From a virus, in IMG/VR virus record IMGVR_UViG_3300036823_000235, positions 1-30,545 of that record: a DNA stretch of 30,545 bases. The stretch is one strand, 5' to 3'. The notes beneath the pieces are model-generated. The model did not search any database. It was not told the origin of the DNA and was given only the letters and a program-made list of their open reading frames with translations. Position numbers and translations under genes: made by a program. Below are positions 4,587 to 27,400 of this stretch, one piece after another (position 1 is the stretch's first letter; the number at the start of each line of letters is the position of its first letter).

Positions 4587-5363
4587 ATGAACTCCCCTAT
4601 TGGCTGGCCGGGCGGCAAACGCAGGCTAGTCAAGCGTCTCCTAACCCTTCTGCCTAAACACACAATCTACGTCGAGCCCTTCTGTGGCTCGGCAAAACTA
4701 CTATTTGCAAAACCTCCTAGCGACCGCGAAGTCATGAGCGACGCGAATGGAGACCTGATCAACTTTTTCATGGTCGCAAAATACAGGCCAAGCGCGCTGG
4801 CCGAGCAATTCGAGTCCGCAATTTCTCACCCTGCATGGTTCAAGAAGCTATTGAAATCGAAACCGGACCACGGAGACGAGGTTGAGCGAGCTTTCCGATT
4901 CTCATATTTGACTTGGCTCTCATTCGGGACCAAAGGGGAACACTTCGCCGGATCGCGCGACGGTGCGCCTCAAAAGAGATTGAAGCTTGTACGCGAGAAA
5001 CTGGCAAAAGCTAGTGCTCGCCTGCAGGACGTTGTCATAGAGTGCGCTGACTATGCTCAGATCATTTTGAAGTACGACTCTCCCGAGACGTTCTTCTTTT
5101 GTGATCCGCCTTATGTGGATTATGGATCCAACGGACGCTATGAGGCATTCACCTGCGAAAAGCTGGACGCCCTTTTTAAAGTGCTTGCAGGCATTAAGGG
5201 AAAATTCCTCATGAGCGAAGAGAACCACCCCGATGTTAGAAAGCACGCTGAGACTCACGGAATGCTGAGCCGCAGAATCCGCACGTCCTATTCACTATCT
5301 AAGACCACCAATTCTCAGATCAAGACTGAGCTTCTGATTTCAAATTTTCCATTGCCAGCTTAG
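4587..5363 (+). CDS. D12-class DNA adenine N6-methyltransferase (Dam-like)
   Basis: Motif X appears as GWPGGKRRL (residues 7-15), the AdoMet-binding motif I as VEPFCGSAKLLF, and the catalytic motif IV as CDPPYVDY. All are in the order expected for the D12/Dam class, with motif X N-terminal. At 258 residues it is of normal length. It would methylate adenine in DNA; GATC specificity is typical of the class but is not shown here. A GAGG ribosome site lies 12 bases before the ATG. It stands between terminase and portal on the same strand and is therefore part of the packaging operon rather than a distant moron. Protection of phage DNA from restriction, or a role with the nearby HNH enzyme, is inference. 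Confidence 0.93.
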   Translation: MNSPIGWPGGKRRLVKRLLTLLPKHTIYVEPFCGSAKLLFAKPPSDREVMSDANGDLINFFMVAKYRPSALAEQFESAISHPAWFKKLLKSKPDHGDEVERAFRFSYLTWLSFGTKGEHFAGSRDGAPQKRLKLVREKLAKASARLQDVVIECADYAQIILKYDSPETFFFCDPPYVDYGSNGRYEAFTCEKLDALFKVLAGIKGKFLMSEENHPDVRKHAETHGMLSRRIRTSYSLSKTTNSQIKTELLISNFPLPA

Positions 5364-7902: not shown

Positions 7903-7976
7903 AGCGCATGGGTGTCTTTCCCGTCGAAGTGATGCCGCGTCCGCACCAAACCAAAACCAACAAAGGGAATCACCTC

Positions 7977-9473
7977 ATGAAACGTCAAAGATTCTTCGCC
8001 ACCGCTGGCGAAAAACGCAAGTTCTACAACAACCGGCGTCACTTCGGCCGGACGTGTGACATCGGCCTCGCCGGCTTCGCATTGCTTCCTGCATTGCTGC
8101 CTGCAGCCCTCATCGCGATGGTCCTTTTTGCCGTCGCCTCATTCTTCATCGGAAGCCATGAAGTCCACCACGTTGCGCCAATCGCCTCCAGCGTGAAATA
8201 TCACCTACCAGCCCTCGGCATGGCCGTAAGCATCCGCAAGAGCATTGAGCTTAAAGACGACAAGCTCAAGCTGACAAACGATTACAGAATCATTCTGGAC
8301 AAAGTCTCAGCTGAGAAACGTAAATACACGCCTGACGAGACTGAAACTCTCAGAAAGATGGACGCGCGGTTCGATGAACTTGATGCAGAGATCGCGATGC
8401 ATGAAAAACAGGAAAAGCGGGAAGCTGATTCAGCCGGCCGCGATCCTCGCGCAACACGAAACCAGCCAGGCAATGACACGGCAAACCCTGGTGAGCCGCA
8501 GGGCGTTCGCGCCACTGAGCAGTATCGGCAGGTGTTTGCCAAGTACCTGCGCCAGGGCGACGCCGCTCTCGCATCTGCACCTCAGGAAATCCGCGCTGCA
8601 TTGCAGGCCGACAATGACGCAACCGGAGGCTACATAGTCGCTCCTGAGCAGGCGTCCGCCATGTTCATCCAGAAAGTGAATGATCTGGTTTTCATCCGCA
8701 ACCTCGCAACCAAAGAGACCGTCAAAACAGCGCAGTCGCTTGGCATTCCTACCTTGCAGGCAGATCCCGCAGATGCAGACTGGACCAGTGAACTGCAGAC
8801 CGGCACTGAAGATTCCACAATGTCCTTCGGCAAGCGCGAGCTGAATCCTCATCCGCTGGCCAAACAAATCACAATCTCCAATAAGCTGCTGCGTTTGGCG
8901 CCCAACGTGGAAAACAAAGTCATGGAGCGCCTGGCTTACAAGTTCTCAATCCCTGAAGAGAAGGCTTTTCTTCTGGGCTCAGGAGCTGAACAGCCGCTCG
9001 GGGTATTCACTCCCACCACGGACGGAATCTCCACCGCGCGTGATATTTCCACTGGCAGCACAACCGCCATCGTGGCCGACTCTCTGTTTGACGCCATGTA
9101 CTCGCTCAAAGCTCCATACCAGGCAAAAGCTGTGTGGGGATTCCATCGCGATGGCATTAAACAGATCCGGAAGCTGAAAGACACCACGAACCAGTACCTC
9201 TGGCAGCCTGCCATCAGCGCTGGCCAGCCCGATACGATCCTCGGCCGTCCTTTCTTCATGTCGGAGTACATCCCGAACACCTTCACCACTGGCCTCTATG
9301 TTGGCATCGTCGGCGATTTCAGCTTTTATGTGATCGCGGACGCGCTGGATATGTCAGTGCAGCGCCTGGTCGAGCTCTATGCCCTGAGCAACAAGACAGG
9401 ATTCATCGGCCGCAAGGAAACAGACGGCATGCCAGTCCTGGAAGAAGCGTTCTCTCGGATCAAGCTGGCTTAA
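7977..9473 (+). CDS. HK97-type major capsid protein with hydrophobic N-terminal extension
   Basis: From about residue 180 the product is a standard HK97-fold capsid protein (GGYIVAPEQASAMFI; LAKQITISNKLLRLAP; AFLLGSGAEQPLGVF; FMSEYIPNTF). Residues 83-150 are a charged coiled coil (SIRKSIELKDDKLKLTNDY onward) matching the delta/scaffold domain cut off by the protease. The unusual part is residues 1-82: a basic start, then a long hydrophobic stretch (about 29-59) resembling a membrane helix. The start at 7977 was chosen because AAAGGGA lies nearby upstream; an in-frame ATG at 7908 lacks such a site. An alternative start at 8220 (Met82) would give a normal capsid protein but has no ribosome site. 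Predicted 498 residues. Confidence 0.92.
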   Translation: MKRQRFFATAGEKRKFYNNRRHFGRTCDIGLAGFALLPALLPAALIAMVLFAVASFFIGSHEVHHVAPIASSVKYHLPALGMAVSIRKSIELKDDKLKLTNDYRIILDKVSAEKRKYTPDETETLRKMDARFDELDAEIAMHEKQEKREADSAGRDPRATRNQPGNDTANPGEPQGVRATEQYRQVFAKYLRQGDAALASAPQEIRAALQADNDATGGYIVAPEQASAMFIQKVNDLVFIRNLATKETVKTAQSLGIPTLQADPADADWTSELQTGTEDSTMSFGKRELNPHPLAKQITISNKLLRLAPNVENKVMERLAYKFSIPEEKAFLLGSGAEQPLGVFTPTTDGISTARDISTGSTTAIVADSLFDAMYSLKAPYQAKAVWGFHRDGIKQIRKLKDTTNQYLWQPAISAGQPDTILGRPFFMSEYIPNTFTTGLYVGIVGDFSFYVIADALDMSVQRLVELYALSNKTGFIGRKETDGMPVLEEAFSRIKLA

Positions 9474-10715: not shown

Positions 10716-11297
10716 ATGCAATCCGGAAAACTACGTTATCTGGTCGCGCTTGAGCAGAAGACCTCAGCTCGCGACAATTTTGGAGCTGACCAGGAGCTAT
10801 GGAATACCGTTGCCACCATCTATGCCGGCTTTGACACACTGAGCGGACAGGAACTCTTCGCCGCGCAAAAGATAAACGCAGACGTTACCCACAAAATCAC
10901 CCTTCGCTATCGCGCGGGCATCATTGCCGCCATGCGCATCAACTGGACTGACACAACCGAAGGCCGCAACCGCATCTTTGACATTATCGCGCCCATGGAC
11001 CCTGAACAGCGGCGTCAGATGCTGACCGTGCTGGCCATAGAAAGAAACATCCCAGGCGATGGAGTTGCGCCCGGACTGCTCACCGGGTTTCCCGTGGGCT
11101 ACAGCCGCAAGGCATTCAATGAAGCACCCGATGGCGCCAGAACAGTCTTTACTGTGTCTGGCATTCCTAACCCTGCAATCTTCCGCCTGGTGATCGAAGG
11201 GATGGAGCAAGACTCTTCGCAGTTCGTGCTTTCCGGCAACACCGTAACGCTGCCATTTGCGCCCCAGGCCGGCGACAAGATGGTCCCGTGGTTTTAA
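10716..11297 (+). CDS. Head-closure (head-tail joining) protein with extra C-terminal beta domain
   Basis: Residues 1-112 match the SPP1 gp16/Phage_H_T_join pattern: a basic LRYLVALEQKTSARDNFGAD start, then ELWNTVATIYAGFDTLSGQELFAAQKINADVTHKITLRYR, then RIFDIIAPMDPEQRRQMLTVLAIE. This ring protein closes the connector after packaging. Normal members end there; this one continues for about 75 residues (APDGARTVFTVSG..., LSGNTVTLPFAPQAGD) that resemble the small beta domain repeated in phage tail and fibre proteins. It begins one base after the connector stop codon. The fusion is likely real because the frame is continuous and the codon use does not change. Confidence 0.88.
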   Translation: MQSGKLRYLVALEQKTSARDNFGADQELWNTVATIYAGFDTLSGQELFAAQKINADVTHKITLRYRAGIIAAMRINWTDTTEGRNRIFDIIAPMDPEQRRQMLTVLAIERNIPGDGVAPGLLTGFPVGYSRKAFNEAPDGARTVFTVSGIPNPAIFRLVIEGMEQDSSQFVLSGNTVTLPFAPQAGDKMVPWF

Positions 11298-11314: not shown

Positions 11315-13309
11315 ATGAGATTCTGCAAACGTTTGCGCGGACTGCTCTCGCTGGCCATTCTTGCGTCTTGCGCCCTGCTCCACGCGCAGACCAAGCCGGA
11401 TATCGGCCGCTACACCGTGGGCGATCTCCCCACCTCGCGCCTGAACGCGCCTGGTATTGCCGGGCTCTGCCTTTTGACGGATGGCAACAGCCATGTCTCA
11501 ATAGCCGCATGCCCTGCAGGATCAGGCGGCAGCGGATCAGGGACCTTCCCGCAATCGCTCGCCAATGCGTCTCACAAATGGCTCAACAGCTATGACGCTA
11601 ACACCGGACTTTTCACTCAAACCCAGCCGGCGTCAACCGCACTCGCCGATTTCTCAGCCACCGCGCCAACCACAGCCGGCAAGATTCCCATCTTTGATCC
11701 CACGGCCCCCAACTCAGCCGGCGGCACCGGCGCTTACGTTCCCGGCGATCCGCTGGTGCAAGGCCTGTTTGCCGATGACTCAACCTCGGCAGAAAATCCC
11801 GTCGCTATCGGCGGCTATGACACTGCCGGAACGCCCGCCATCCACCGCGCAACCTTTATTAACGGAACGCCAGGCGGCACCGAGTATGGCATCATCACGC
11901 GCAACATTCCGTCCGGAACACAGCCGATCAGCGGGACCATAGCGGTATCCAATTTCCCGGCAACCCAACCCATCAGCGGATCTGTGTCAGTTTCAAACTT
12001 CCCGGCAACCCAACCCGTAAGCATCGCCAGCAGCGTCACCGTCGCGCAAGCCGCCGGCACAAACCTGCACACGGTGGTTGACTCCGCGCCCACCACGGCA
12101 ATAACGGCATCAGCTCTGCCTTTACCCACTGGCGCGTCCACTGCGGCGAAGCAGCCAGCACTCGGCACAGCCGGAACTCCTAGTCCGGATGTAATCACAG
12201 TCCAGGGCGCGGCCAGTGGAACTGCACTAAAGACAGACAGCAGCGCCACAACTCAGCCGGTATCTATAGCCAGCACCGTGCAGGTTTCGCTGGCAAATAC
12301 TGCAGCCAATGCGACGGCCGTAAAGACAGATGGCTCTGGTGTGACTCAGCCTGTAAGCGTTGCCTCATCTGTAACAGTTGCTCAAGCGACTGGAACAAAT
12401 CTGCATGTAGTAGTTGATTCAGCGCCGACCACGGCGATTACTGCTGTGGCTTTGCCTCTGGCCACCGGTGCGGCCACATCCGCCAATCAGTCCACAGTGA
12501 AAGCCGCTTCCACTGCTTCCGTGGCCACTGACACCAGCTCAGTGGTGCAGCTCTCGCCAAACCAACCTCAGTTGACGACTCCATTGAACGTTCAGGGCGC
12601 AACTGCCAATGTCGCGCCGCCCGCGCGCACTGAAGGAAACCAGGCTGCGCTCTCGGTTGATCTTCACGGCAACCTGCGCGTTTATGGGCATCCACCAGAC
12701 GTCCTCGGCTGTTACATGGTCAACGGCCGCACCGGCACTTATGCCGCACTGGCTGCCGGCTCTCCGCTTTATTCCTTCCGCTGGTCTTCATCCACCGCGC
12801 TTGCCGTGATCATGCGGGTCAAGGTCAGTGTCACCACCGTTACCGCTGCAACCGTTGCGGGCCAGGCTGAGCGCGAACTGATAGTGGCGAGGTCTTTTTC
12901 TGTATCTGACACGGGCGGCACGGCCGTTACTCTCACCGGCAATAACCAGAAGATGCGCACCAGCATGGCCACTTCTCTGGTGGGTGATATGCGCTTCGGC
13001 CAGCCTCTCACCGCGGGCACCCGCACGCTGGATTCTGCCCCAATTGCCAGTGCAGTCGCATGGCTGCCGCTTTTATTCACTGGCGTTGACATCGGATGCG
13101 GGGGAGCTGCCAACACCACAACCGCTAACTCCTGCATGGGCGGCATTGGGATGATTGAACTTCTCAACGCCACCAATGGACAGGATTATCCGCTGGTGCT
13201 GGCGCAGAACGAAGGATTCATTGTGCGCATCGGCAAAGACGCCCAGCCCACGACAGCCGTTCAGCAGACTTACGTAAACGTAAGCTGGTGCGAGGTCAGC
13301 GCTTTCTAA
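11315..13309 (+). CDS. Signal-peptide-bearing repeat-rich fibre-like protein, 664 aa
   Basis: The first 25 residues form a textbook Sec signal peptide: MRFCKRLRGL, a hydrophobic core LSLAILASCALL, and cleavage after HA before Gln25. The mature part has repeated beta units: VSNFPATQP twice, 15 residues apart; a 31-residue block at 12017-12109 recurs at 12353-12445. Such 'V.NFPATQPVSG' repeats are typical of phage neck or tail fibre proteins. The C-terminal third (residues about 470-664) looks globular, with several cysteines. The ATG at 11315 was chosen over an in-frame GTG at 11288 because it starts the signal peptide. It lies between connector and gp10-like genes, where a virion protein is expected, so the export signal is surprising. 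Confidence 0.75.
   Translation: MRFCKRLRGLLSLAILASCALLHAQTKPDIGRYTVGDLPTSRLNAPGIAGLCLLTDGNSHVSIAACPAGSGGSGSGTFPQSLANASHKWLNSYDANTGLFTQTQPASTALADFSATAPTTAGKIPIFDPTAPNSAGGTGAYVPGDPLVQGLFADDSTSAENPVAIGGYDTAGTPAIHRATFINGTPGGTEYGIITRNIPSGTQPISGTIAVSNFPATQPISGSVSVSNFPATQPVSIASSVTVAQAAGTNLHTVVDSAPTTAITASALPLPTGASTAAKQPALGTAGTPSPDVITVQGAASGTALKTDSSATTQPVSIASTVQVSLANTAANATAVKTDGSGVTQPVSVASSVTVAQATGTNLHVVVDSAPTTAITAVALPLATGAATSANQSTVKAASTASVATDTSSVVQLSPNQPQLTTPLNVQGATANVAPPARTEGNQAALSVDLHGNLRVYGHPPDVLGCYMVNGRTGTYAALAAGSPLYSFRWSSSTALAVIMRVKVSVTTVTAATVAGQAERELIVARSFSVSDTGGTAVTLTGNNQKMRTSMATSLVGDMRFGQPLTAGTRTLDSAPIASAVAWLPLLFTGVDIGCGGAANTTTANSCMGGIGMIELLNATNGQDYPLVLAQNEGFIVRIGKDAQPTTAVQQTYVNVSWCEVSAF
11953..12016 (+). 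repeat. 45-base period repeat encoding VSNFPATQP units
   Basis: The 18 bases TTCCCGGCAACCCAACCC occur at 11954-11971 and again at 11999-12016, exactly 45 bases apart in frame. This suggests recent tandem duplication inside the fibre-like gene. Confidence 0.75.
12017..12445 (+). repeat. Diverged 31-residue repeat pair within the fibre-like gene
   Basis: The blocks 12017-12109 and 12353-12445 encode 31-residue units identical at 28 positions (both contain SSVTVAQA, GTNLH and VVDSAPTTAITA). Their DNA differs at many third codon positions. The protein repeat has thus been kept while synonymous sites drifted. Confidence 0.8.
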
Positions 13310-13310
13310 A

Positions 13311-13871
13311 ATGGTCGACATCGATCTCACAACTTCCGGGCTTCCGGATCTGCAGGACAATCTCAAAGCTTTTGCCACCGAGATCCAGCAGAAGCTGCTT
13401 ACCAATTCGCTGGTAGCCGGCGCGCAGGAAGTTAAAGGCGAAATGCAGGCTCAGGCGCCGCGCTCTCACAATATTGGGCCACGGCAAAAATCTGACCAGC
13501 ACATTGCAGACGATATCGTTATCAAGATTGAAAAGAACCCCATCGATTCAGCGGCCGAGGTTTACGTTGGCCCAGGCAAAAGCGTCTCTTCCAAAGCCCG
13601 CTGGATTGAGCTGGGCGTTACGGCGCATGCCATCGTTACGCGCCTGACCAAACTAATGCGCAAACAGGGCGATACCGGAAAGAAAATCCTGGCCAGCTCC
13701 TCGCAGATATTCGGCACGCACGTTGAACATCCTGGGCTAAGCCCGCGGCCGTTCATGCGTCCGGCTCTGCAGGCGTCTGCACGGAAAGCAATTACGGCCA
13801 TGCGAGATTCCCTGGCAGCCGGCATTTCAGCCGCGGCCAAAAAGGCCAACCTGAAAAGCCGTTCCAAATGA
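13311..13871 (+). CDS. HK97 gp10-like tail-head joining protein
   Basis: The 186-residue product starts with a 'D..TSGLPDLQDNLKAFATEIQQKLL' helix and AQEVKGEMQAQAPR. It continues with AEVYVGPGKSVSSKARWIELGVTAHAI and ends with EHPGLSPRPFMRPALQASA. The 'W.E.G...H..' and 'P.RPFMRPAL' elements are the family hallmark of HK97 gp10 proteins. They act in head-tail connection or tail completion. Codon spacing is tight: it starts one base after the fibre-like gene and overlaps the next gene by ATGA. Confidence 0.9.
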   Translation: MVDIDLTTSGLPDLQDNLKAFATEIQQKLLTNSLVAGAQEVKGEMQAQAPRSHNIGPRQKSDQHIADDIVIKIEKNPIDSAAEVYVGPGKSVSSKARWIELGVTAHAIVTRLTKLMRKQGDTGKKILASSSQIFGTHVEHPGLSPRPFMRPALQASARKAITAMRDSLAAGISAAAKKANLKSRSK

Positions 13872-14098
13872 TCCAATGCCAACTCAGCTTCGATTGCTCT
13901 GGAATAAAGAGCCTGCTACCGCAGCTTGAATCTCAGCCGGCAAAATGCAGACAGATTCTTTCCATGCTGGAAGCGGGACGTTCAAAAGAACTGTTCGCAT
14001 GCGTGGTGGATGCAGATCAAAGCACTCCCCATCACGTCATCTTCAAGTTTGTTCCCACAGATTTACTCGCGCTGATGCTCGTCTCAGTCGACTGCTAA
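13868..14098 (+). CDS. Small hypothetical protein between gp10-like and tail terminator genes, 76 aa
   Basis: The start codon overlaps the previous stop (ATGA), and its stop is three bases before the next ATG, so it fits the operon perfectly. The 76 residues have no recognisable domain: a mixed helical centre (LPQLESQPAKCRQILSMLEA) followed by a hydrophobic end (FVPTDLLALMLVSVDC). No signal peptide. Overlapping frames are also open, so the gene is supported mainly by its exact fit between neighbours. Confidence 0.5.
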   Translation: MIQCQLSFDCSGIKSLLPQLESQPAKCRQILSMLEAGRSKELFACVVDADQSTPHHVIFKFVPTDLLALMLVSVDC

Positions 14099-14101
14099 CC
14101 C

Positions 14102-14551
14102 ATGCCAACTTTAGAAGAAGGTATTTTCGCGCTGATGAATGAGCGCGAGGAGAGCATCAATCTCACATTCTCCACCGGCCCATTCTTTGATGGCACTGCC
14201 TGCAGGATCTATCCCGGCACAGTTGACGAACTGGCGGTCCTGCCGGCTATGGGATATGCGCGCGTCGGGGGCAATCCCAGCGACATGACAATGTCAGGGC
14301 CTGATGGCGTGAAGGAAGCGCGGATCCAATTTACAGGCCTGGGCAAAACCTATGCGGATGCAGCCACGCTGATCGGCGCACTAACCGGCACGCCCGGATC
14401 CCGCGGACTCTTTGATGGATACCGCGGCACGTTGCCCAACGGCATTGTGGTCCAGCTCGCTGAGCTGGTGACTGAGCCAATCGATTCTTACGTCGACGAA
14501 GCCAAGCTGTTCACGCGCCACGTTGATGTGAAATTTACTTACGAAACCTAA
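14102..14551 (+). CDS. Tail terminator/completion protein (DUF3168-like)
   Basis: The product has the family order: an N-terminal LEEGIFALM helix, CRIYPGTVDELAVLPAMGYARVGG, then GVKEARIQFTGLGKTYADAATLIGAL. It ends with VDEAKLFTRHVDVKFTYE. These correspond to the DUF3168 'riyP...P.v.y', 'a.vqv...g.tyadA..l...' and final 'D..i.Y' strands. DUF3168 proteins cap the tail tube and connect it to the head. At 149 residues the length is normal, and it stands before the tail tube gene as expected. Confidence 0.82.
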   Translation: MPTLEEGIFALMNEREESINLTFSTGPFFDGTACRIYPGTVDELAVLPAMGYARVGGNPSDMTMSGPDGVKEARIQFTGLGKTYADAATLIGALTGTPGSRGLFDGYRGTLPNGIVVQLAELVTEPIDSYVDEAKLFTRHVDVKFTYET

Positions 14552-14568
14552 ACAAGGAGTTAGAAGCA

Positions 14569-14997
14569 ATGAACACTAGAAAGAAGATCTTCGCTGCAGT
14601 CGTTCTCACCATGGTCCTGTCGATCGCCGCCTGGGCCACGCGTGTATCCATTACCCCGCAGACGCCCAAAGGCCCTTACCCCGGCACGGTGAATGCCGGC
14701 GACCTGGCATTGACCTTTACGGCAGCTGATGCCACCAACTTCAATCAGTTTGCCGCGGTCGGCAATGAAATTCTGATTGTGCAAAATACTGACGCGGCCA
14801 GCCAGACCGTCACCTTCACCAGCCGCGCGGACAATTTCGGCCGCAGCGGAGATGTTGGCCCTTACACGCTCACCACCGGAACCTTTGCTGTCTTTAATTT
14901 CCGCAATGCCAATCAAGGCTGGATCCAGGCGGACGGCAATGTTTACTTCCAGGCCAGCACCACCACTGTGAAGTTCGCAGTGCTCCGCGTTCAGTAG
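14569..14997 (+). CDS. Small beta protein of phage type with Sec signal peptide, 142 aa
   Basis: MNTRKKIFAAVVLTMVLSIA with cleavage probably after AWA (residue 23) is a classic signal peptide. The mature part (AGDLALTFTAADATNFNQF; VGNEILIVQNTDAASQTVTF; ADNFGRSGDVGPYTL; GWIQADGNVYFQAS) matches a recurrent small phage structural family of the tail region, which normally lacks a signal peptide. A strong AAGGAG site lies 11 bases upstream. It is flanked by the tail terminator and tube genes. Export of a virion-like protein is unexpected and is discussed as a finding. Confidence 0.7.
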   Translation: MNTRKKIFAAVVLTMVLSIAAWATRVSITPQTPKGPYPGTVNAGDLALTFTAADATNFNQFAAVGNEILIVQNTDAASQTVTFTSRADNFGRSGDVGPYTLTTGTFAVFNFRNANQGWIQADGNVYFQASTTTVKFAVLRVQ

Positions 14998-15058
14998 TTT
15001 CATTTTTTCGCGCTTCACTCAAAAACAATTCAACATCTCTTAGCAAAGGAACACTCTC

Positions 15059-15487
15059 ATGAGCGGTACACAATCAACAATCGGAATAGGCACACAGGTA
15101 CAGCGCGGCGATGGCCTGTCTCCAGAAGGTTTCAACGCCATCGGAGAAATTTTGGATATTGGCGGACCTGCGCTTTCTCTCGATACTCCTGACGCCACCA
15201 ATATGGGATCCACGAATTTCCGCGAGGAAGTAATCGCTGGAATCGTAAAGACCGGAACAGTCGATTTCGACGTGCAATATGTGCGCGGCAACGTGCAACA
15301 TGTCGGCTTGACCAACGATCTCAAGACACGCATCTTGCGCAACTTTAAGATCGTCTTCCCTGACGATCCGACCAACCCAGTCACATTTGCCGCCTTCGTT
15401 ACCAAGGCACAGCCTAAGACGCCAGTTACCGGTAAGCGCACCATGTCCTTCTCGCTCAAGCTGTCTGGCGACTTCACCGGTCTCTAA
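15059..15487 (+). CDS. Major tail tube protein
   Basis: The 142-residue product starts TIGIGTQVQRGDG and has a long beta-rich core: GEILDIGGPALSLDTPDATNM, FREEVIAGIVKTGTVDFDVQY, and KRTMSFSLKLSGDFTGL at the end. The 'i.gp.....d.Td' and final 'G..sf..kltG.' elements are typical of siphovirus tail tube proteins, which stack as hexamers into the tube. AAAGGA precedes the ATG. Placement before the assembly chaperone and tape measure genes supports the call. Confidence 0.85.
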   Translation: MSGTQSTIGIGTQVQRGDGLSPEGFNAIGEILDIGGPALSLDTPDATNMGSTNFREEVIAGIVKTGTVDFDVQYVRGNVQHVGLTNDLKTRILRNFKIVFPDDPTNPVTFAAFVTKAQPKTPVTGKRTMSFSLKLSGDFTGL

Positions 15488-15527
15488 AAAGAGACACCCT
15501 CTAAATATCACGCTTTAAGGAAAATCC

Positions 15528-15923
15528 ATGTCTGCAACCCATCCCATTATGCCGTCCGTCCCCATTGAGCTGGACGGCCGTAATTTCAATCTGATCTTTG
15601 ACTTCAACGCTCAGTGCGCTTTTGAGGAAGTAACCGGCACAACCGTCCTCAGCCTGTTTGATAAGCGCGGCCGGCTGACCATTTCTTCTCGTTTTACCCG
15701 CGCTCTCTTGTGGTCTCAATTTCTCTTTGAGGATGAACAGGTCAGCTTTGATGAGTTCGGGCGGATCGTGCAGCAGCCGGAACTTAACATGCAGGCAGTG
15801 GGCAGGATGATCACGCATAAGACGCTGCAGCTGGTGAACAGCAAAACCAGGGAAGCGCTGCTGCTGTTTTTCAAGCCTGATAAAAAGTCTGAGGAAGATT
15901 CCAAAAACCCTCCCAGCCGCTGA
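15528..15923 (+). CDS. Tail assembly chaperone (gpG-like)
   Basis: The 131-residue product carries IELDGRNFNLIFDFNAQCAFEEVTGTTVLSLF, then a helical region with VSFDEFGRIVQQPELNMQAVGRMI, and a charged tail (KPDKKSEEDSKNPPSR). This is the pattern of the gpG-type chaperone found before the tape measure gene, which keeps the tape measure protein soluble and recruits tube subunits. AAGGAAA precedes the ATG. The next reading frame is one base back (-1), and a run AAAAAC lies just before the stop, so a longer G-T fusion product is probable. Confidence 0.82.
   Translation: MSATHPIMPSVPIELDGRNFNLIFDFNAQCAFEEVTGTTVLSLFDKRGRLTISSRFTRALLWSQFLFEDEQVSFDEFGRIVQQPELNMQAVGRMITHKTLQLVNSKTREALLLFFKPDKKSEEDSKNPPSR
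15903..15908 (+). other. Candidate -1 frameshift site (AAAAAC) in the tail chaperone
   Basis: In the chaperone frame the codons here read TCC AAA AAC CCT. Slipping back one base at AAA AAC gives CAA AAA CCC TCC CAG and enters the next open frame, which has no stop from 15893 to 16219. The six bases lie within the only window (15893-15920) where a shift would work. It is not a perfect XXXYYYZ heptamer, since the base before AAA is C. Confidence 0.5.
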
Positions 15924-15928
15924 CCCTG

Positions 15929-16219
15929 TTGGAGCTCAGGGCCATTGCCCTGTTCGACCTGGGACTCAGCGGCTTGGAGTTCGGCCGTAATAACCACCGC
16001 ACACTCGGCGCACTCATGGAACGCCTGAAGGTTCGCCGCGTGATTGAAGATTTTCGCGCCGGCCAGATCTGCTCCATCATTGCTAACAGTGTGCCCCGCA
16101 CTGGCAACGCTTTATACCCTCAAGACTTTTTCCCCAGTCTGCACGTCCCGCGGACGCCTCTCACGCCTAGCCAGGTGAGGGCCAAACTGCGGGGTATTCG
16201 TTCCGTTCTCAACGCATAA
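15929..16219 (+). CDS. Tail assembly chaperone C-terminal frame (gpT-like)
   Basis: The frame is open from 15893 to 16219 and has only a TTG at 15929 as possible start, without a ribosome site. It encodes LRAIALFDLGLSGLEFGRNN and then FRAGQICSIIANSVPRTGNALYPQDFFP. The last stretch resembles the 'aalia..ANv.r.....P..pedF.P' ending of phage chaperone T domains. The most likely product is therefore a fusion with the preceding chaperone made by -1 frameshifting, joining ...EDSKK to PSQPLTLLELRAIALF. Independent translation from TTG is the alternative. Confidence 0.75.
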   Translation: MELRAIALFDLGLSGLEFGRNNHRTLGALMERLKVRRVIEDFRAGQICSIIANSVPRTGNALYPQDFFPSLHVPRTPLTPSQVRAKLRGIRSVLNA

Positions 16220-16233
16220 ATAGAAATCCACTT

Positions 16234-18288
16234 ATGGCCAGCGCAGCTACAGACACAATCGGCTCACTCGTCATTGACCTTCGCGCCAACGTCGCCCAGC
16301 TCCAGGCCGACATGGACCAGGTCAAAGACATCGTAACCAAGTCCTCTGCCCAAATGTCTTCGCAGATGCGGAGCGACATGCAGGAGACTCGGCAAACGTT
16401 GGCTCTCTTGCGCGATGATTTCGGCGTTGGCATCCCGCGCGAACTCAGGGCCGTGGTTGCTTCCAGCGAGACGGCACGTACAGCGATTATGGCCATGAGC
16501 AATGCTTTCGTTGGCTTGGCCTTTATCAATATCGCTGTCGAAGGATTCAAAAAGCTCAGTGAATACCTTGACTCGGCCAGTGCAAAAGCCGCTCAGGAGG
16601 CAAAGAGCACGCTGGATATTGCTTTTGCTGCGCAACAGGCGGTCGATGCCACCATCAAGAGGAACGAAGCTCTTGAGCTGATCGGCAAAGGCGAAGATGA
16701 TCGCGCTGCCATCCAGGCTGCGTTCTACGCCACAGAAAAGCAGCGCAACACGGAACGCCTCGTCGCGCTGCGGGGCCAGCTGCAGGCTCGCCTCGCGATT
16801 CTCAAGACTTATGAGAATGCTCCAGATGCTACTCCTGATCGCGCTGCTTCGGCCGAAGCCGGCATTGATGACGGCGGAACACCTACAGGCGATTCAAATG
16901 GGAGCACAGCTTCTCTTTATGCTCAGGCCGTCAAGGATGCCAAGCCTGAACTGGAAGCATTGCAGAAAGCCATCGACGATGCCACCGCGGGCGCCAAGAG
17001 TAGCGCTCTCCAGTATTCTGACTATTTAAAAAGCCTGGCCGAGGACAGCCTGAAGAATGACGAGACTATCGCTCTCGCAAAAGTAGCGCTGAGAAAAAAG
17101 ACCGCCGATGACGAACTCCAGTCCGGGAAGATCGGAATTGATGCTTACCTCGCCGCTGAAAAGGGGGCCGCAGAGGCGGAATACGATATCAAGCTGGAGT
17201 CTCTCTACAATACCCTGGCCATCCTGGAACTCGACCCCTCGCGCAACGTAAAACTGATCCAGGACACTTTCGCCAAAATTGACGTGCTCCACATCGATCA
17301 CGAAAAGGACAAGACGGACATATTGGCTAAGGGAGTAGAGGCCCGCAAAAAAATCATAGACGATGAAAACACAGCCAACATGAAGGCTCTGGGGTCAATG
17401 GGACTCGCGAATAAAAACGAGACGTTCCCCTCCAATATAATTCAGAGCCTGGCTGCCAGCAGCTCCGCCAAGCCAAAGTTGGATGGTTCAATCGCAGGCT
17501 TCATGCAAGGGCAGTCCCAGAATCTACTGGGCAACACCATGAAAGATGCGGCGGCCCAGGGCAAGCTTCTTGAGACGGCCATGGAAGGCCTGCTCACTCC
17601 CACCCAGAAATACGAAGTCCTGCAGGCGGAGATCGTTCCGCTCATGGATAGATACAAAGCTTATCCTGATGTCGTAAAGGCGCTCACCGTTGAGCTGCAA
17701 AAAGCCAATCCGGAATTTCAGAAGATGCAGGAAGCGTCCTCCGAGTTTGGCAAGGACCTGAGCACAGAGATTGAAAATATCGCCCTCAGTGGAAAATCGC
17801 TGCATGACGTTCTTATCTCGCTCCTGCAGGACCTGGAAAAGATCGTACTCGAAGCTACGCTGCTGAAACCGTTGCAGGATTTCTTCGCCGGATCCGGCAG
17901 CAGCACTGGCGGAGGCCTGCCCGGCTTCCTGAGTAATCTTTTCGGTATCGGCGGAAGCTCTGGCGGAGGCGCTGCGGCGGCGGCCGGGGGCGTGACGGTA
18001 CCAGGTTTTGAAGATGGCTTTCTTGAAGGCTTTGCCGATGGCGGCAATCCACCAGTAGGCGTTCCTTCCATTGTGGGTGAAAATGGTCCGGAACTGTTCG
18101 TGCCGCAGTCAGCGGGAACCATCGTTCCCAACGGCCAATACGGCGGATCCACGCAGATCATCAACATTGACGCCAGAGGCTCAACGCCTGGCAGCGCGCC
18201 AGCCATCCAGCGCGCGGTCCAGACTGCCCTTCAGCAGAACGTCAGGCAGTCAGTCGCAGCCTCAATCGATTACCAGAGACGGAGATAA
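16234..18288 (+). CDS. Tail tape measure protein
   Basis: The 684-residue product is long, helical and has coiled-coil segments, one central hydrophobic segment (ARTAIMAMSNAFVGLAFINI near residues 86-110) and glycine-rich stretches near 555-585. The C-terminus FADGGNPPVGVPSIVGENGPE and LFVPQSAGTIVPNGQYGG is the hallmark of lambda gpH-type tape measures. The protein sets tail length; by the usual rule of about 1.5 angstrom per residue the tail would be near 100 nm. No clear ribosome site precedes the ATG. It follows the chaperone frames as in most siphoviruses. Confidence 0.95.
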   Translation: MASAATDTIGSLVIDLRANVAQLQADMDQVKDIVTKSSAQMSSQMRSDMQETRQTLALLRDDFGVGIPRELRAVVASSETARTAIMAMSNAFVGLAFINIAVEGFKKLSEYLDSASAKAAQEAKSTLDIAFAAQQAVDATIKRNEALELIGKGEDDRAAIQAAFYATEKQRNTERLVALRGQLQARLAILKTYENAPDATPDRAASAEAGIDDGGTPTGDSNGSTASLYAQAVKDAKPELEALQKAIDDATAGAKSSALQYSDYLKSLAEDSLKNDETIALAKVALRKKTADDELQSGKIGIDAYLAAEKGAAEAEYDIKLESLYNTLAILELDPSRNVKLIQDTFAKIDVLHIDHEKDKTDILAKGVEARKKIIDDENTANMKALGSMGLANKNETFPSNIIQSLAASSSAKPKLDGSIAGFMQGQSQNLLGNTMKDAAAQGKLLETAMEGLLTPTQKYEVLQAEIVPLMDRYKAYPDVVKALTVELQKANPEFQKMQEASSEFGKDLSTEIENIALSGKSLHDVLISLLQDLEKIVLEATLLKPLQDFFAGSGSSTGGGLPGFLSNLFGIGGSSGGGAAAAAGGVTVPGFEDGFLEGFADGGNPPVGVPSIVGENGPELFVPQSAGTIVPNGQYGGSTQIINIDARGSTPGSAPAIQRAVQTALQQNVRQSVAASIDYQRRR

Positions 18289-18289
18289 T

Positions 18290-18334
18290 TATTTGCTTTT
18301 CTCCGTGCCTCTGTGTCTCCGTGGTGAAAATTAA
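18290..18334 (+). repeat. Short interspersed repeat-like sequence after tape measure gene
   Basis: The stretch contains CCTCTGTGTCTCCGTGGTG, a string I recall as highly repeated in intergenic regions of Acidobacteriota and other environmental bacteria; in one frame it yields the familiar spurious peptide SVPLCLRGE. It fills the gap between tape measure and the next gene. The copy-number claim is from memory and needs a genome search. Confidence 0.45.
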
Positions 18335-18338
18335 TTTT

Positions 18339-19178
18339 ATGAAATCCAAACGCACATGGCAGCTGATAGCTGCCTTTTTAATTGCCATTTGCTATTTGCC
18401 AATTGCTTCTTTCGCCCAGAGCGCCAAGGGCTTCCGCTATGACAACGTTGCCACCCTTGATAGCGGACGCCCCGTCCAGGGCGCAAGCATTCTGGTGTGT
18501 AAACCCGGAACCAGCTGCGCCACCAACGCCAGCATATTCACTGACCAGGCGCTCAGCTCGGCCATTACGCAGCCGGGCTTTCAGAGCGGGGCCCAGGGCA
18601 ATTACTTCTTTTATGCCGCATGCGGGACCTATGACATCCAGATCTCCGGCAACGGCCTGACCACGCGCACCATGAAAGACGTGCAGCTCGGCGCGTGTAC
18701 CAGCACCGGCTTTATCCAGTCCGGCAACACCGCCCGCGTGGCCACGGATTTCACCACGGCCGCCAATACGTCTCTGCAAACGATTGCAGGGCTTACCTGG
18801 ACCGTGCCGGCTGTCGCCAGCAGTTACAGCTTTCACTGCGGCATCACTTATTCGCAGGCCACGGCCGCGGCGCTGGTTTCGTTCGGCATCCAGGCGGCCA
18901 CCAATGCGCCCACCAACATCTTTGCCAACGGCGCGCAGTCCATCACGGTTGGCCCTCCAGCTACTGAGGTCAACGGAAACCTGCTGGCGCTTACCACCAC
19001 CACGGCCACCACCATAGTTTCCGGGACGCCCGGCGCCATTGCGAATAACTATGTGGTCACGCTCGAAGGCACCATTGAGAATCCCGCAGTGGTGAATACC
19101 TTCAACATCATGGTAAGCACGGCCACCGCAGCCGACGCCGTCACCGTAAGGCGCGGCAGTTACTGCCAGCTGCTCTAG
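18339..19178 (+). CDS. Signal-peptide-bearing fibre-adaptor-like protein, 279 aa
   Basis: A Sec signal peptide (MKSKRTWQLIAAFLIAICYL, cut after SFA at residue 26) leads into YDNVATLDSGRPVQGASILVC, SIFTDQAL, and GNYFFYAACGTYDIQISGNG. This is the 'grPv.ga.v.v......a.iytd......p..aD..Gnf.fya..G.Ydv.isg.g' module often found at the N-terminus of phage tail fibre or minor tail proteins and in some acidobacterial secreted proteins. The rest is beta-rich and ends with RRGSYCQLL. An in-frame GTG at 18321 exists, but ATG 18339 begins the signal peptide. It is a tandem paralogue of the next gene in its N-terminal half. Confidence 0.72.
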   Translation: MKSKRTWQLIAAFLIAICYLPIASFAQSAKGFRYDNVATLDSGRPVQGASILVCKPGTSCATNASIFTDQALSSAITQPGFQSGAQGNYFFYAACGTYDIQISGNGLTTRTMKDVQLGACTSTGFIQSGNTARVATDFTTAANTSLQTIAGLTWTVPAVASSYSFHCGITYSQATAAALVSFGIQAATNAPTNIFANGAQSITVGPPATEVNGNLLALTTTTATTIVSGTPGAIANNYVVTLEGTIENPAVVNTFNIMVSTATAADAVTVRRGSYCQLL

Positions 19179-19206
19179 TCTTCCAAAACTGAAAAGGTCA
19201 AAAATA

Positions 19207-20448
19207 ATGAAATCCAGAATCTTAAGCGCAGCGCTCCTGCTATTTGCCATTTGCTATTTGCCAGTTGCCGGCTTCGCCCAAGGCTCGTGCTCTCCGGACA
19301 AGATCGCTCTCCTGGACACCGGACGCCCGGCCAACGGCGCGCAGATCCGCGTCTGCCCTGCAGGCGGAACTTTCCCTGGCTGCGGATCTTCCTTGTTCAC
19401 AGATCCCACGCTGGGCACGCCGCTGGTGGGCAGTCCGGTTGTAACCTCAGACTCGCATGGCAATTGGGGATTTTGCGCAGCGGCCGGCCAGAACTATGAC
19501 TATCAGGTCACCTGCACAGGATGCACCACTGCGACCATCAAGAATTTTCCGCTGCCGCCAGCGAGCCCCATCAACGCCGCATCGCTCACCAGCTCCTCTG
19601 CCAATCCCGCGAACGTTGGCCAGATAAAACTGGCGTCCAGCGATTGCATGGACTGGCGCAACAATGCCAACACGGGAAATATTCAGCTATGCAAGAACAC
19701 CAGCGATCAGCTTGATCTGACCGCGTTTAGCGTTGTGAACGCAGTCAGTGTTGCAGCCACGGGAAACGTAAACGCAGGCGGAGCAGTTACCGGCGAAAGC
19801 ACCGGCGACGTAGCAGCATCTCGGTCGGCTACTTCAGGCGCTGCATGGCTTGGTACCGATGGGAACCTTGCTTTATTTCGGAGCGGATTGACTGCACTGG
19901 GAATATTCACACCAGCTGGGACGCTGACGATTCCGGTGGTCACCGACACTCTCGTCGCCCGCAACACCACGGAGACGCTGAACAATAAAACCTTGGCCAG
20001 TCCGACGAGCACCGGAACTGACAGTGGCACAGAGGCGCTGACAAACAAGAGCCTCGGCGGAACCGGGTCAACAACCCCGAGTACCCCATTCAATCGCCTC
20101 GCTGCAACGCGCGGAACCGCTCTCACCACGGCGAAGGTCGGAACACTTACGGGTTGGGGAACTACTGCAACCGTATCAGCCGTTTTCGGCTCTGATTCTT
20201 TCGGTATTGTGGCGATTAGCTCAAGTGGAACGGGGCAAGCGGCGAATCCAACTTTTACAATTACATTTTCGGATGGGACGTGGGGAACGAATGGGCCAAT
20301 GGCGGTTGTGTGCAGGGCTGATGCTAATTCACCCTCGGCGGCGGCGTTCTTTAATTCCTCTACGCCAACAACTCTAGTTTTGGGGCTTCAGGGAACTCCG
20401 GCGGCAGGCAACATTTATACTTTTATCTATTTCGCCGCAGGAAGGTGA
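19207..20448 (+). CDS. Signal-peptide-bearing tail-fibre-like protein, 413 aa
   Basis: Signal peptide MKSRILSAALLLFAICYLPV with cleavage after GFA (residue 24). The next 100 residues repeat the module of the upstream paralogue (LDTGRPANGAQIRVC, GNWGFCAAAGQNYDYQV). Residues about 255-295 carry TLVARNTTETLNNKTLASPT and TEALTNKSLGG, the 'dTltNKTLtsPt' repeat seen in phage fibres. The C-terminal 100 residues form a probable knob. AAAAGG precedes the ATG. From about 20130 the codon use shifts (more GGG, ACG, AAT, TTT), suggesting an exchanged receptor-binding end. Its stop at 20446-20448 is immediately followed by the end of the opposite-strand cassette. Confidence 0.75.
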   Translation: MKSRILSAALLLFAICYLPVAGFAQGSCSPDKIALLDTGRPANGAQIRVCPAGGTFPGCGSSLFTDPTLGTPLVGSPVVTSDSHGNWGFCAAAGQNYDYQVTCTGCTTATIKNFPLPPASPINAASLTSSSANPANVGQIKLASSDCMDWRNNANTGNIQLCKNTSDQLDLTAFSVVNAVSVAATGNVNAGGAVTGESTGDVAASRSATSGAAWLGTDGNLALFRSGLTALGIFTPAGTLTIPVVTDTLVARNTTETLNNKTLASPTSTGTDSGTEALTNKSLGGTGSTTPSTPFNRLAATRGTALTTAKVGTLTGWGTTATVSAVFGSDSFGIVAISSSGTGQAANPTFTITFSDGTWGTNGPMAVVCRADANSPSAAAFFNSSTPTTLVLGLQGTPAAGNIYTFIYFAAGR

Positions 20449-20724: not shown

Positions 20725-21306
20725 TTACTGTTCGTGCCATTCAAAACCGAAAATTGGAGTGCCTTTAAATCCGGGCAGGTTGTAAATCACATATCCTCGT
20801 CCGGGCGGTATCGCCAATGGATGCGCAGTGAGATCAAGAGTGCATGAGTTTTTCGATTTGTTGACCATGCACGCAAAGTGATCAATGTAGGTTCCAGCCG
20901 TCGCGCCCAGATTGCCTGTGTTGACCGGCCCAAGGCACGGCTGGCCAAAGAACTTCGCCACGGACTGAGCGGATGTTCCTCCGGGTGTCTGCTGCCCTGC
21001 GTCACTGAGGTCAATATTCGTTACGCCGTAGGCAGTGCAGTTGCTTGGATACGTGAGCGCGAACTGAGTGCCAAATTCAACGTAAGGAGTGGTGTCGTCC
21101 GCATCGAATCCCACGCTGATATTCACGCGGTCAATGTAGATCGTCTTGCCGGAATTGGCAGGATTGAAAAGCCCCTGATCGAATCCAGTGGCGAGATCAT
21201 CCTGGGTGTAAACGTAAGAAGAGAAATATTTCGGCGGGTTGGTTTGAGCAAAGCCGCTGATTGCGGCCAGAGAGATGAACAAAAAGAGGTAAAATTTCTT
21301 AGCCAT
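20725..21306 (-). CDS. Secreted hypothetical protein, 193 aa
   Basis: MAKKFYLFLFISLAAISGFA followed by Gln21 is a signal peptide with the same FA|Q cut site as the plus-strand exported proteins. The mature region is beta-rich (KTIYIDRVNISVGFDADDTTPYVEF in part) with four cysteines that could form disulfides outside the cytoplasm, and ends with RGYVIYNLPGFKGTP. No enzyme motif is seen. It lies in the cassette downstream of the PEGA protein after an 82-base gap that contains a 6-bp hairpin (21350-21367). Probably periplasmic or surface located. Confidence 0.7.
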   Translation of the reverse strand: MAKKFYLFLFISLAAISGFAQTNPPKYFSSYVYTQDDLATGFDQGLFNPANSGKTIYIDRVNISVGFDADDTTPYVEFGTQFALTYPSNCTAYGVTNIDLSDAGQQTPGGTSAQSVAKFFGQPCLGPVNTGNLGATAGTYIDHFACMVNKSKNSCTLDLTAHPLAIPPGRGYVIYNLPGFKGTPIFGFEWHEQ

Positions 21307-21388
21307 GATTTGGGGTGTCCTATCACCCTGAATTGCGGTTGGGTCAGTTCGGAAGTTGACGCTTCCGGGCTGGCCGTTATGGTTTAGG

Positions 21389-22141
21389 TTATTTCGTTTC
21401 TTTTTCTAGATCAAACGCAATGGGTATATTCTTTCCGTCTGGCGTGAAGCTTTGCGCTGCCCCCTTGTATCCATCCAGTTTCACGCTAACGACTCGCGGC
21501 GTATCCTCTTTGAATAAAAAAAACGCTATTGGCGAATTCCCGGCGAGGTTGCCGTCGATATAAACCGCAGCGCCAGCAGGATTTGTAACCACAGAAGCGC
21601 GAGAAGCTTTTCCTTCTTCAATCGCTCTCTTGACCTGATCCGGCGTCATTTTGGTATGCCCGTTGGCCAATGCAGCGGCGGCTGCAGGCGAGCCCTGAGA
21701 ATCCTTGGAGTTTTGAAGTATCTCGGCTCTCAGTTTTATCTGCTGAAGGATGTTTTCGAGATTGGCCCTGGCATTTTTATCATCCAGGTGGTCACGCACA
21801 AGCCTGCAGAATGGCCCGGCCCGTTCATAATCGAGAGCGCCCGAAATGGTGCTTCCTGTAAAAACCGCCGTCAGTATGACCCTCGGCGCAATGGAAGAAC
21901 AAGCAGGTGGCGAAAGAAGCGCCTTACTGAAAAACCCAGAGGCTCCTGTTATATCCCTTGCGAAAACAAATTGGAACTGTCCTTCCTGCAACAGGGCGTA
22001 ATGATCCCCGGTCAGAATTTCAACCGCAGCTCGTTTCACCATCTGATCCGATGCTCCAACATTCACGGATACGGGGTCTTTTTGTCGCGCTACGCATGCG
22101 GTTCCCAACAATAGCCCGATAGCCAGCAATGATATTTTCAT
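21389..22141 (-). CDS. Envelope protein with C-terminal PEGA domain, 250 aa
   Basis: MKISLLAIGLLLGTACVARQ looks like a lipoprotein-type signal ending at Cys16, although the lipobox (G-T-A-C) is not ideal. The middle has a helical stretch (LENILQQIKLRAEILQNSKD) and GHTKMTPDQVKRAIEEGKASR. Residues about 182-248 form a PEGA domain: VVTNPAGAAVYIDGNLAGNSP and then VVSVKLDGYKG. PEGA domains are beta modules of surface-layer and envelope proteins. The gene lies 29 bases downstream of the ribbon-helix-helix gene, likely in one transcript. An envelope-altering role during lysogeny is inference. Confidence 0.72.
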   Translation of the reverse strand: MKISLLAIGLLLGTACVARQKDPVSVNVGASDQMVKRAAVEILTGDHYALLQEGQFQFVFARDITGASGFFSKALLSPPACSSIAPRVILTAVFTGSTISGALDYERAGPFCRLVRDHLDDKNARANLENILQQIKLRAEILQNSKDSQGSPAAAAALANGHTKMTPDQVKRAIEEGKASRASVVTNPAGAAVYIDGNLAGNSPIAFFLFKEDTPRVVSVKLDGYKGAAQSFTPDGKNIPIAFDLEKETK

Positions 22142-24479: not shown

Positions 24480-27400
24480 ATGCCCAAAGTTCTCATAGGA
24501 ATCGGTGAAGCCGTTCTCGGCATCGGCGCGGCCATTGTTGGCGCGGTCTTTGGCCAGCCGTGGCTGGTCGGACTGGGTGTCACTCTTGCGCTGAACGGCG
24601 TAACCACGCTGCTTACCAAGCCGCCGGCTGCAGCCAGCGTGGTAAACGATCTGGGATCGAGCAGCGTCTCAGTGCGCCAGCCGCTGGCGCCGCGCCAGGT
24701 CACTTACGGCCGCGATCGCCGTGGCGGCGTCTTCACCTACATCATCAACAGCGGCGGAGTATTTAACACATTCCTTAATGTTGTTATCACCATGGCCGGC
24801 CACCAGGTCACGGACATTCCCGCCATGTATTTTGACGGCGTGCAGATTCCCGTGGACGCCAATGGCGACGGACTCAATCAATACGCCGCAACCGATGGCA
24901 GCGGGCTTGCCTTTGTGCACTGGGAAAAGAAGCTGGGCGCTCCGGGCGAACCTGCATTCCCTGGCCTGATCGCGCAGGTGCCTTCGCAGTGGACCGTAAA
25001 CCATCGCCAGGACGGATGCGCGAGCTGCTACGTGCGCCTCAAGTGGGACGCCACGCTCTTTCCCAACGGCATGCCCACCATCACCTTTGACATTCTGGGC
25101 AAGCCCGTTTTCGATCCGCGCACCGGCCTCACGGCTTACTCTGAGAATGTCGCGCTCTGCCTCCGCGATTACCTGCTGGATCCAGTGGTTGGCCTGGCTG
25201 AGAGCGCAGCGTCCATTGACAACAGCCTGCTGATTGCCGCTGCAAACGTTTGCGATCAGAGTGTGGCCCTGCGCGCTGGCGGCAGCGAACCTAATTTCTC
25301 GCTCAACGGGTCCTTCAGCGTTGACCAGGTTCCCGCGGACATCATCACCGGACTGCTCAGCGCCATGGCCGGCAGCATGATTTATTCCGAAGGCAAGTGG
25401 AAGATCTACGCGGCCGCCTTCCGCGGCACCACCATTCCTCCGCTCACAGACAACGATCTGCGCGACTCCATGAAGGTGCAGACGCTGCTCTCGCGCCGCG
25501 ATCTTTCCAACTGCGTGAAGGGCGTGATGCGCGATCCGCTGAACAACTGGCAGCCCGGCGACTTCCCGTGCGTGCAGAATCCGCAATACATCTGCCAGGA
25601 CAATGGCTTTTCTCCCACGCAGAATCTTGGCCAGTGGGCCAGCTTCATTGGTTACGTGCGGGGCGATTCCGTCTTTGATAACGGCAGCGCCTGGTGGTGT
25701 AACACGCCGCACAACTCCGTGCCGGGCAATGAGCCCAGCTCCGGCTCTCCGCTGTGGACTCTGGCCCCGGAACGCGCGTGGCTTGACCTGGCCCTGGCTT
25801 ATACCATCTCGCCCTCCATGGCGCAGCGCATTGCCAAGATCCAGCTGGAGAAAATCCGCCGCCAGATTGACGTGCAGTTTCCCGGCCGGCTCAATGCGAT
25901 TCGTCCGGAAGTGTGCGACGTGATTCAGATCACGCGCCAGGCGCGCTTTGGCTGGAACGCCAAGTCCTTTGAGGTCTACAACGCGCAGATGAAAGTTTTC
26001 CAGGGCGACAATGGCGCCAACCAGATTGGCTGCGACCTGGGCTTGCGTGAGACGGATGCCGCCGTTTATGCGTGGAATCCCACCGTGGATGAGACGGTTG
26101 TGAACTTTGTTGGGACGGGCATCCAAAGCGCGGGCGGTACCACGGTGAATAAATACTTCACTGACGGCACTGAAGGCGTCGCAGGCGTGCAATATATCGT
26201 GAGCGTGGTGGTGGACAATCAGGGACTGGGCAACGCCTTTGTGTCCGCGGGCTCAAGCTATCCCGTCTCTGCGCCCATTCTGCCTGGCGCCACGCAGAAT
26301 ATCGATCTTATCTTTGCGGCCAGCGGTCCTGACGTGCAGCTGATCTTCCAGACTGCGCTGGCTGCTGACGCGCTGAATATTCTGGCCATCAATCCCATCA
26401 TTGCGCGGACCTCAAATAACGTAAACCTGATTCCACCGCAAAACCGGACTTTCCAGACGTGGCTGCCATTGAATGGCGCAGTGGTCACAATAACGCAGCT
26501 CGCTCCCACGCTGCCCGATATGAAGCAGGTTGGAGTTCCGGGCGTGCTGGTGGCCACCAATGACACGTTCACACGCGCTGACGGCGTAAAGAAAACCCGG
26601 ATCAAAGCCACCTGGATTTCACCCACTGATACGTTCGTCCTCAGCGGCGGCTGGATCAACCTGGAAGTTTCTGACCACGCCGACGGCAGCACGCCCAAGA
26701 TATGGAAGTTCGCTTCGCGCGTTGCCGGCAGCGCCACCGTGGCCTATTACGAAGAGGTGATTGACGGCCATACCTATGACGTGCGCATCTCCTCGGAAAA
26801 CTCATCCGGATCGCATAGCGCGCTGGTGGAAGCTGATGGCCTCGCGGTCTCAGACGCCTTCAGCCAGATCACCAGCACCAGCTTTGGCAACCAGGGCAGC
26901 ATTCGTCCCACGGCGTTTCCAGCATGGACCGTTGCAGCCAACACAAATAACGGATCCGGAGCGTGCACTGTAAGGCTCACGGCCCCGGCCACACCGCTTC
27001 CACTCACGGATGGAACCAGCATCTCCATGCCGGCTGCGGATTTCACCTGGCCAGGTGTGCTGGCGGCATCCACTTCTTACATGTTCGCGCCGCGCTACAA
27101 AATCGCCGACGACACAGTTCATTTCGCGGGCTTCGCCGGCGTGAACGTCAACGCCGATCCCAATACGATCCCGCTGGCCAGCACCGGCACTGATGATCAG
27201 AAAAACCAGCTTTCTGTAAACCAGAACTTTGATGGCTATATTCCGCTTTCCAACGGATACATCAACGTCACCACGCCCAACAATGCCGGCGCGGGCGGCG
27301 GATCGAGCGGCGGCGATCCGGGCTGCGTGCATGAAGATGCGCGGGTGGAATTGATCACCAGCACCGCGCACGGAGTTTATGCGCTGAAGGAATGCAGCCT

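Follow-up and report, generated by a model that had tools for sequence, protein, structure and literature searches.

Four genes in the late operon of a siphovirus-type soil phage encode proteins predicted to begin with cleavable Sec signal peptides (SPs), and one of them, gene 2, has relatives with (SP+) and without (SP-) the signal that share a mature N-terminus. In the textbook view, tailed-phage assembly takes place wholly in the cytoplasm. The reading favoured here, at a probability of about 0.5, is that these genes encode accessory virion proteins, which would form disulfides as they fold in the periplasm and would be added to the particles at lysis.

Layout of the late operon

The window, i.e., the whole stretch of DNA analysed, is a 30.5 kb IMG/VR record with a late operon of the HK97/lambda type. 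The genes follow the order TerS, TerL, portal, ClpP-type protease, major head protein, adaptor, head closure, gp10-type tail completion, tail terminator, tail tube, tape measure, distal tail and J-type tip protein, and the combination of an HK97-type head with lambda-type tail genes is that of a siphovirus-type phage. The same order was found in the SP+ relatives (loci L016, L017, L002/L009, L010, L011 and L012).

The terminase genes are separated from the portal gene by a gene for a D12-class adenine methyltransferase (4587-5363). At 7908-8220, the ORF of the major head protein is extended at its N-terminus by a long segment, which includes a strongly hydrophobic stretch and precedes the usual start of the delta-domain (MAVSIRKSIEL); the head-protein ORF of L016 is 99% identical to it and equal in length. 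The C-terminus of the J-type tip protein (27276-27722) resembles a Hint/intein-type domain with CVHEDARVEL near its start and HN near its end, the match to Pfam Vint reaching only E=0.07.

Predicted signal peptides

Signal peptides were called with a home-made rule combining positive charge of the n-region, hydrophobicity of the h-region and small residues at -3/-1. The rule recognised 19/19 E. coli SPs and called 0.5% of shuffled core N-termini. None of 195 distinct core virion genes of related phages (TerS, TerL, portal, head, connector, tail-tube, chaperone, tape-measure and related proteins) was called. When the first 60 residues of each window protein were shuffled, the observed score was reached in 6 to 53 of 5000 shuffles, which corresponds to a chance rate of about 0.1-1% per gene for its own N-terminal composition.

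Genes 1-4 showed the positive n-region, hydrophobic h-region and small -3/-1 residues of Sec/signal peptidase I substrates, as the preliminary description of this DNA had proposed for all four. Their N-termini, with an arrow at the predicted cut, are MRFCKRLRGLLSLAILASCALLHA↓Q for gene 1 (start 11315), MNTRKKIFAAVVLTMVLSIAAWA↓T for gene 2 (start 14569), MKSKRTWQLIAAFLIAICYLPIASFA↓Q for gene 3 (start 18339) and MKSRILSAALLLFAICYLPVAGFA↓Q for gene 4 (start 19207). The number given in that description was too low, as it missed a fifth SP gene (20725-21306, minus strand; cut site GFA↓Q, four Cys in the mature part) and a neighbouring PEGA-domain gene with a lipoprotein-like N-terminus, a probable moron (21389-22141, minus strand). 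Together they form a moron-like pair within the tail region (20725-22141). An SP+ gene of similar size stands at the place of the fifth gene in L002/L009, where other exported-looking genes also occupy the position of the pair.

The signals are kept in relatives even though their sequences diverge: the gene 1 SP recurs in L016, L017, L002/L009 and L011, that of gene 2 in L002/L009, L010, L011 and L012, and those of genes 3 and 4 in L002/L009, L011 and L012. The view that the signals form a repeated pattern and no single accident is strongly supported. On the basis of sequence, the SP-bearing proteins are very probably exported. Some late operons of related phages contain SP+ genes of very large size, encoding up to 1695 aa (L118 12941-19931, L140 11124-15450 and L060 13489-16188); in L118 and L140, gene 2 has no signal.

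Gene 1 (11315-13309, plus strand) encodes a fibre-like protein of 664 aa with the reported VSNFPATQP repeats, an SP (11315-11386, cut site LHA↓Q) and a C-terminal beta domain (12617-13306) carrying the Cys pair C466/C659. The SP is present with either this start or the alternative GTG at 11288. The gene lies 17 nt downstream of the head-closure gene and 1 nt upstream of the gp10-type tail completion gene, and so should be made together with the virion proteins. Its C-terminal domain is shared with SP- phage proteins that do not have the Cys pair, several of which belong to virion modules and have terminase, head-tail adaptor, major head or tail genes as neighbours. A Foldseek search of the PDB with the domain model (pLDDT 72.3) gave no match at E<=1e-3.

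Gene 3 (18339-19178, plus strand; SP 18339-18416, cut site SFA↓Q) combines a carboxypeptidase-regulatory-like domain containing conserved Cys with a fibre-like C-terminal part. It is preceded by a leader (18300-18338) with a CCTCTGTGTCTCCGTGGTGA element and no ribosome site. Gene 4 (19207-20448, plus strand; SP 19207-19278, cut site GFA↓Q) shares this N-terminal domain and contains the NKTL repeats noticed earlier. The hydrophobic SP cores of genes 3 and 4 (FAICYLP; window 18339-18420 and 19207-19285) are encoded by TTTGCYA heptamers, which in this orientation give a nearly identical hydrophobic heptapeptide in all three frames. Being nearly frame-independent, such repeats could seed signal peptides. 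Of 19 further viral stretches that contain the triple repeat, L247 alone has it close to the start of an ORF, where the context may be SP-like, and the SPs of the L011/L012 homologues are unrelated in sequence, so that seeding of signals by this repeat was set aside as local at most.

Gene 2 occurs with and without a signal peptide

Gene 2 (14569-14997, plus strand; SP 14569-14637, cut site AWA↓T), which has a strong ribosome site, lies between the tail terminator and tail tube genes and encodes a small tail-family protein with a weak match to phrog_16194 (E=8e-5). This tail protein family was matched by 17/39 scanned members of the gene 2 family, the window's among them; PHROG annotation and synteny suggest a place in the virion. 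Foldseek against the PDB with the gene 2 model (pLDDT 92.9) yielded no match at E<=1e-3, and a BFVD structure search returned mostly uncharacterised small phage proteins.

A scan with a gene 2 profile detected 55 loci with 44 distinct members, one of which was dropped from the tree because its end was too divergent. Of the remaining 43 relatives in phage assembly operons, 13 (including the window's) are SP+ and 30 are SP-. The SP- members have an ATG start where the SP would be cut, in most cases with a good Shine-Dalgarno sequence upstream and usually as the sole plausible start. In the alignment their initiator Met corresponds to the -1 residue of the predicted cut in SP+ proteins, as in mature TRVSITPQTPKGPY of the window compared with M followed by SRTAVTPQTPKGPY in L013, or mature VQTPLTPQ (L116) compared with M followed by AQTVLTPI (L130). 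Cleavage would therefore restore the cytoplasmic N-terminus of the protein. The common mature N-terminus of the two versions gives strong support to the earlier idea that secretion signals were recruited onto virion-type genes. Homologues starting after the hydrophobic region had been named as an observation that would speak against the signals; such homologues do exist, but the segment is absent from them altogether, and they are cytoplasmic versions of the protein, which leaves the finding intact. Automatic SP calls in the SP- types L014/L015 and L119/L120 were rejected, as the hydrophobic stretch falls in the mature domain.

In a tree built from the mature part, SP+ members fell into two separate clades, and a single SP+ clade was rejected (AU p=0.0062). 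The tree forces at least two changes of SP state, with counts of changes that do not distinguish gain from loss. In L016 a clade-B SP+ gene 2 (3515-4009) stands beside the adaptor gene, as opposed to the clade-A position in the window. Since the head proteins of L016 and the window are 99% identical and gene 2 yet differs in clade and site, the gene was apparently exchanged between near relatives.

Cysteines accompany the signal peptide

The Cys pair of the gene 1 C-terminal domain (GCY and WCE) was found in 8/8 SP+ and in 0/8 SP- relatives, with the second region missing from one of the latter (L021). The SP- protein of L231/L018, 70% identical to the window's gene 1 domain, reads GAY and WSE at these places, and in the domain tree SP- L231 is the sister of SP+ L232 (support 100/98). 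For gene 2, a Cys pair occurs in 6/13 SP+ as against 0/30 SP- members. It sits at two fixed positions (pattern ACD...xCx) in 6/8 clade-B SP+ proteins, no SP- member has Cys at either position, and the mature part of clade-A members, including the window's, is devoid of Cys. The descriptive P values of 1.6e-4 (gene 1 pair) and 2.8e-4 (gene 2 pair) ignore shared ancestry and belong to a post hoc comparison. Genes 3 and 4 have an N-terminal domain in which two Cys are invariant across six SP+ sequences; no SP- relative of this domain was found for comparison. The Cys content was 2.0% in mature SP+ fibre-like proteins versus 0.45% in core virion genes, and the number of Cys was even in 21/24 of the former. 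The paired cysteines lend independent support to the predicted export.

The residue after the cut site and the probable host

Gln follows the cut site (position +1), directly behind a small residue, in 29/31 SPs of fibre-like proteins, and in a thirtieth when judged by eye. It is present in genes 1, 3 and 4 and in the minus-strand gene at 20725. Gene 2 departs from this pattern, with Thr at +1 in the window and never Gln in its SP+ relatives. A preference for Gln at +1, the Q-rule, has been described in Bacteroidetes, in a paper from which Acidobacteria are absent (PMC5837995). On 300 kb of plasmid pACIX901 of Granulicella tundricola (L264-L269), +1 Gln was found in 18/25 signal-like N-termini, or 18/26 with a shorter length cut-off. 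The corresponding counts were 3/22 for SPs of Proteobacteria loci and 0/19 for E. coli SPs, and the Bacteroidota loci examined had no SP genes for comparison. The common A↓Q sites pointed out in the preliminary description are hence no coincidence, as they match a +1 Gln habit seen also on an acidobacterial replicon. The pACIX901 data point to an acidobacterium that also follows the Q-rule, which was described for Bacteroidetes.

The Shine-Dalgarno sites upstream of gene 2 are good ones, which we take to argue against a Bacteroidota host. Together with the +1 Gln habit they favour Acidobacteriota, and the host is probably an acidobacterium, as judged from these sequence features with no direct match. 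Scans of genome contigs with the gene 2 and TerL profiles revealed no acidobacterial prophage, and about 700 Pseudomonadota and Planctomycetota genomes contained no convincing prophage with gene 2. A tape-measure scan and searches of phage collections with genes 2 and 4 gave no matches.

Cultured phages of the acidobacterium Tunturiibacter have been isolated (Demina et al. 2025, PMC11924767), and signal peptides are not mentioned in that article according to a text search. Tunturi 1 and 2 encode five SP+ proteins within gp12-gp17, with the annotations hypothetical, tail fibre, pectin lyase/tail spike and virion structural protein. Four of the five have +1 Gln. Their Cys content was 1.3-2.7% versus 0-0.8% in the listed neighbouring structural genes, with the exception of the small gp15 (1.8%). 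The siphovirus Tunturi 4 has two SP+ genes of like kind, and Tunturi 3, which shares its host strain with Tunturi 2, had none among 21 genes checked. At its N-terminus, gene 4 of L011 shows weak similarity to gp12 of Tunturi 2 (31% over 130 aa, E=2e-4).

Possible function of the SP-bearing proteins

According to the proposed mechanism, the tailed phage infects a diderm bacterium, which is most likely an acidobacterium, and late in infection it would make fibres along with a small protein of the tail or decoration type. These accessory proteins would pass through Sec, signal peptidase I would remove the SP, exposing an N-terminal Gln in the fibre-like ones, and the products would fold in the oxidising periplasm, most of them with disulfides. 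Virions assembled in the cytoplasm could then meet and bind them upon collapse of the inner membrane at lysis. The preserved position and mature N-terminus of gene 2 suggest that its role is unchanged and that it would thus bind virions once the inner membrane has opened. Of the functional ideas raised earlier, that of fibres joining the virion at lysis fits best, and such binding is quite possible. Against the mechanism stand the need for the periplasmic pool to find virions within the short lysis step, the Cys-free mature part of clade-A gene 2 members, the missing +1 Gln of gene 2 and the absence of SP+ genes among those checked in Tunturi 3.

The main rival, a serious one though rather doubtful, is a late surface function. 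In this case the exported proteins would stay off the virion and act on the surface or debris of the infected cell, e.g., as decoys or by masking receptors, which would keep siblings from adsorbing so that progeny are not wasted. The SP and Cys evidence suits any exported protein, receptor-binding-type domains would suit receptor masking, and lambda Lom provides an example of an exported protein encoded between tail genes (PMC12309495). However, gene 2 shares its sequence, operon position and mature N-terminus with cytoplasmic phage homologues, which is unexpected if its role had changed, and in Tunturi 1 and 2 SPs are found on the annotated tail spike as well as on most of the large fibre candidates.

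Lysogenic conversion, with morons expressed from the prophage modifying the host surface, is unlikely. The minus-strand pair does resemble a moron cassette, consisting of an SP gene and a lipoprotein-like gene, but genes 1-4 follow the late strand and the gaps are short, and promoter-like sites in the region were no commoner than in shuffled sequences. Moreover, Tunturi 1 and 2 have genes of this kind and no predicted integrase, integrase and/or recombinase genes being reported only for Tunturi 3-5 (PMC11924767). The suggestion that lysogens make these proteins as decoys or receptors is weakened by the same Tunturi data as well as by the location of the genes within the late operon, gene 1 being nearly gapless to the next gene.

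It is very improbable that the hydrophobic N-termini are uncut membrane anchors or assembly peptides cut by the prohead protease. Such cleavage was suggested for capsid SPs of Porphyromonas gingivalis phages (PMC10367356), but the AxA-type sites are classical, Gln follows the cut with the regularity given above, the cut site coincides with the N-terminus of a cytoplasmic homologue, and the Cys pairs are linked to the SP. An artefact of start-codon choice or chance hydrophobic N-termini, which would agree with the missing ribosome site at genes 1, 3 and 4, can hardly be the explanation given the low chance rate, the clean controls and the recurrence of the signals in divergent relatives, a conservation that already contradicts it.

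If fibres are periplasmic intermediates, a two-compartment assembly step becomes testable, and the cultured Tunturi 1, 2 and 4 allow direct tests. The exchange of Cys pairs between SP+ and SP- versions offers a clean natural experiment on disulfides in viral adhesins. Proteins have been taken to be of phage origin partly from their lack of an SP (PMC6199706), a rule that would fail in this case; annotators may then drop or misassign receptor-binding genes of soil phages. More tentatively, it can be conjectured that a widespread group of tailed phages of diderm soil bacteria completes its virions outside the cytoplasm, with fibres and a small tail-type protein that are secreted by Sec, disulfide-bonded in the periplasm and mounted during lysis. 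SPs and Cys pairs would then have been acquired or shed jointly whenever a domain passed from an exported to a cytoplasmic version or back.

Comparison with known systems

In the open-access literature no tailed-phage structural-type proteins with SPs and matching cysteines were found, which is weak evidence as most subscription papers and preprints were outside its scope; exported phage proteins of other kinds were found, along with the Q-rule genes of P. gingivalis phages (PMC10367356). The latter come close to the present case, as these phage genes carry Sec SPs whose cleavage exposes Gln, as in exports of the host. They differ in that the five genes are of unknown function there, whereas virion-type families are concerned here, with SP-less counterparts, SP-linked Cys pairs and a host apparently from another phylum. 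The tail family phrog_16194 matches gene 2, yet Sec SPs are found in close to a third of the gene 2 relatives (13/43). Lambda Lom is likewise a Sec-exported product of the tail region; it is, however, an outer-membrane beta barrel and no version of a virion protein. Searches of Pfam and PHROG gave no barrel match for genes 1-4. SP-endolysins and the T4 RI antiholin (PMC8951688, PMC8385771) are tailed-phage proteins exported through Sec with cleavable SPs, but they serve lysis, whereas the proteins described here are of fibre or structural type. The filamentous phage G3p (PMC8310372) is a virion adhesin synthesised as a Sec preprotein; filamentous phages assemble at the membrane, in contrast to the siphovirus-type phage of the window.
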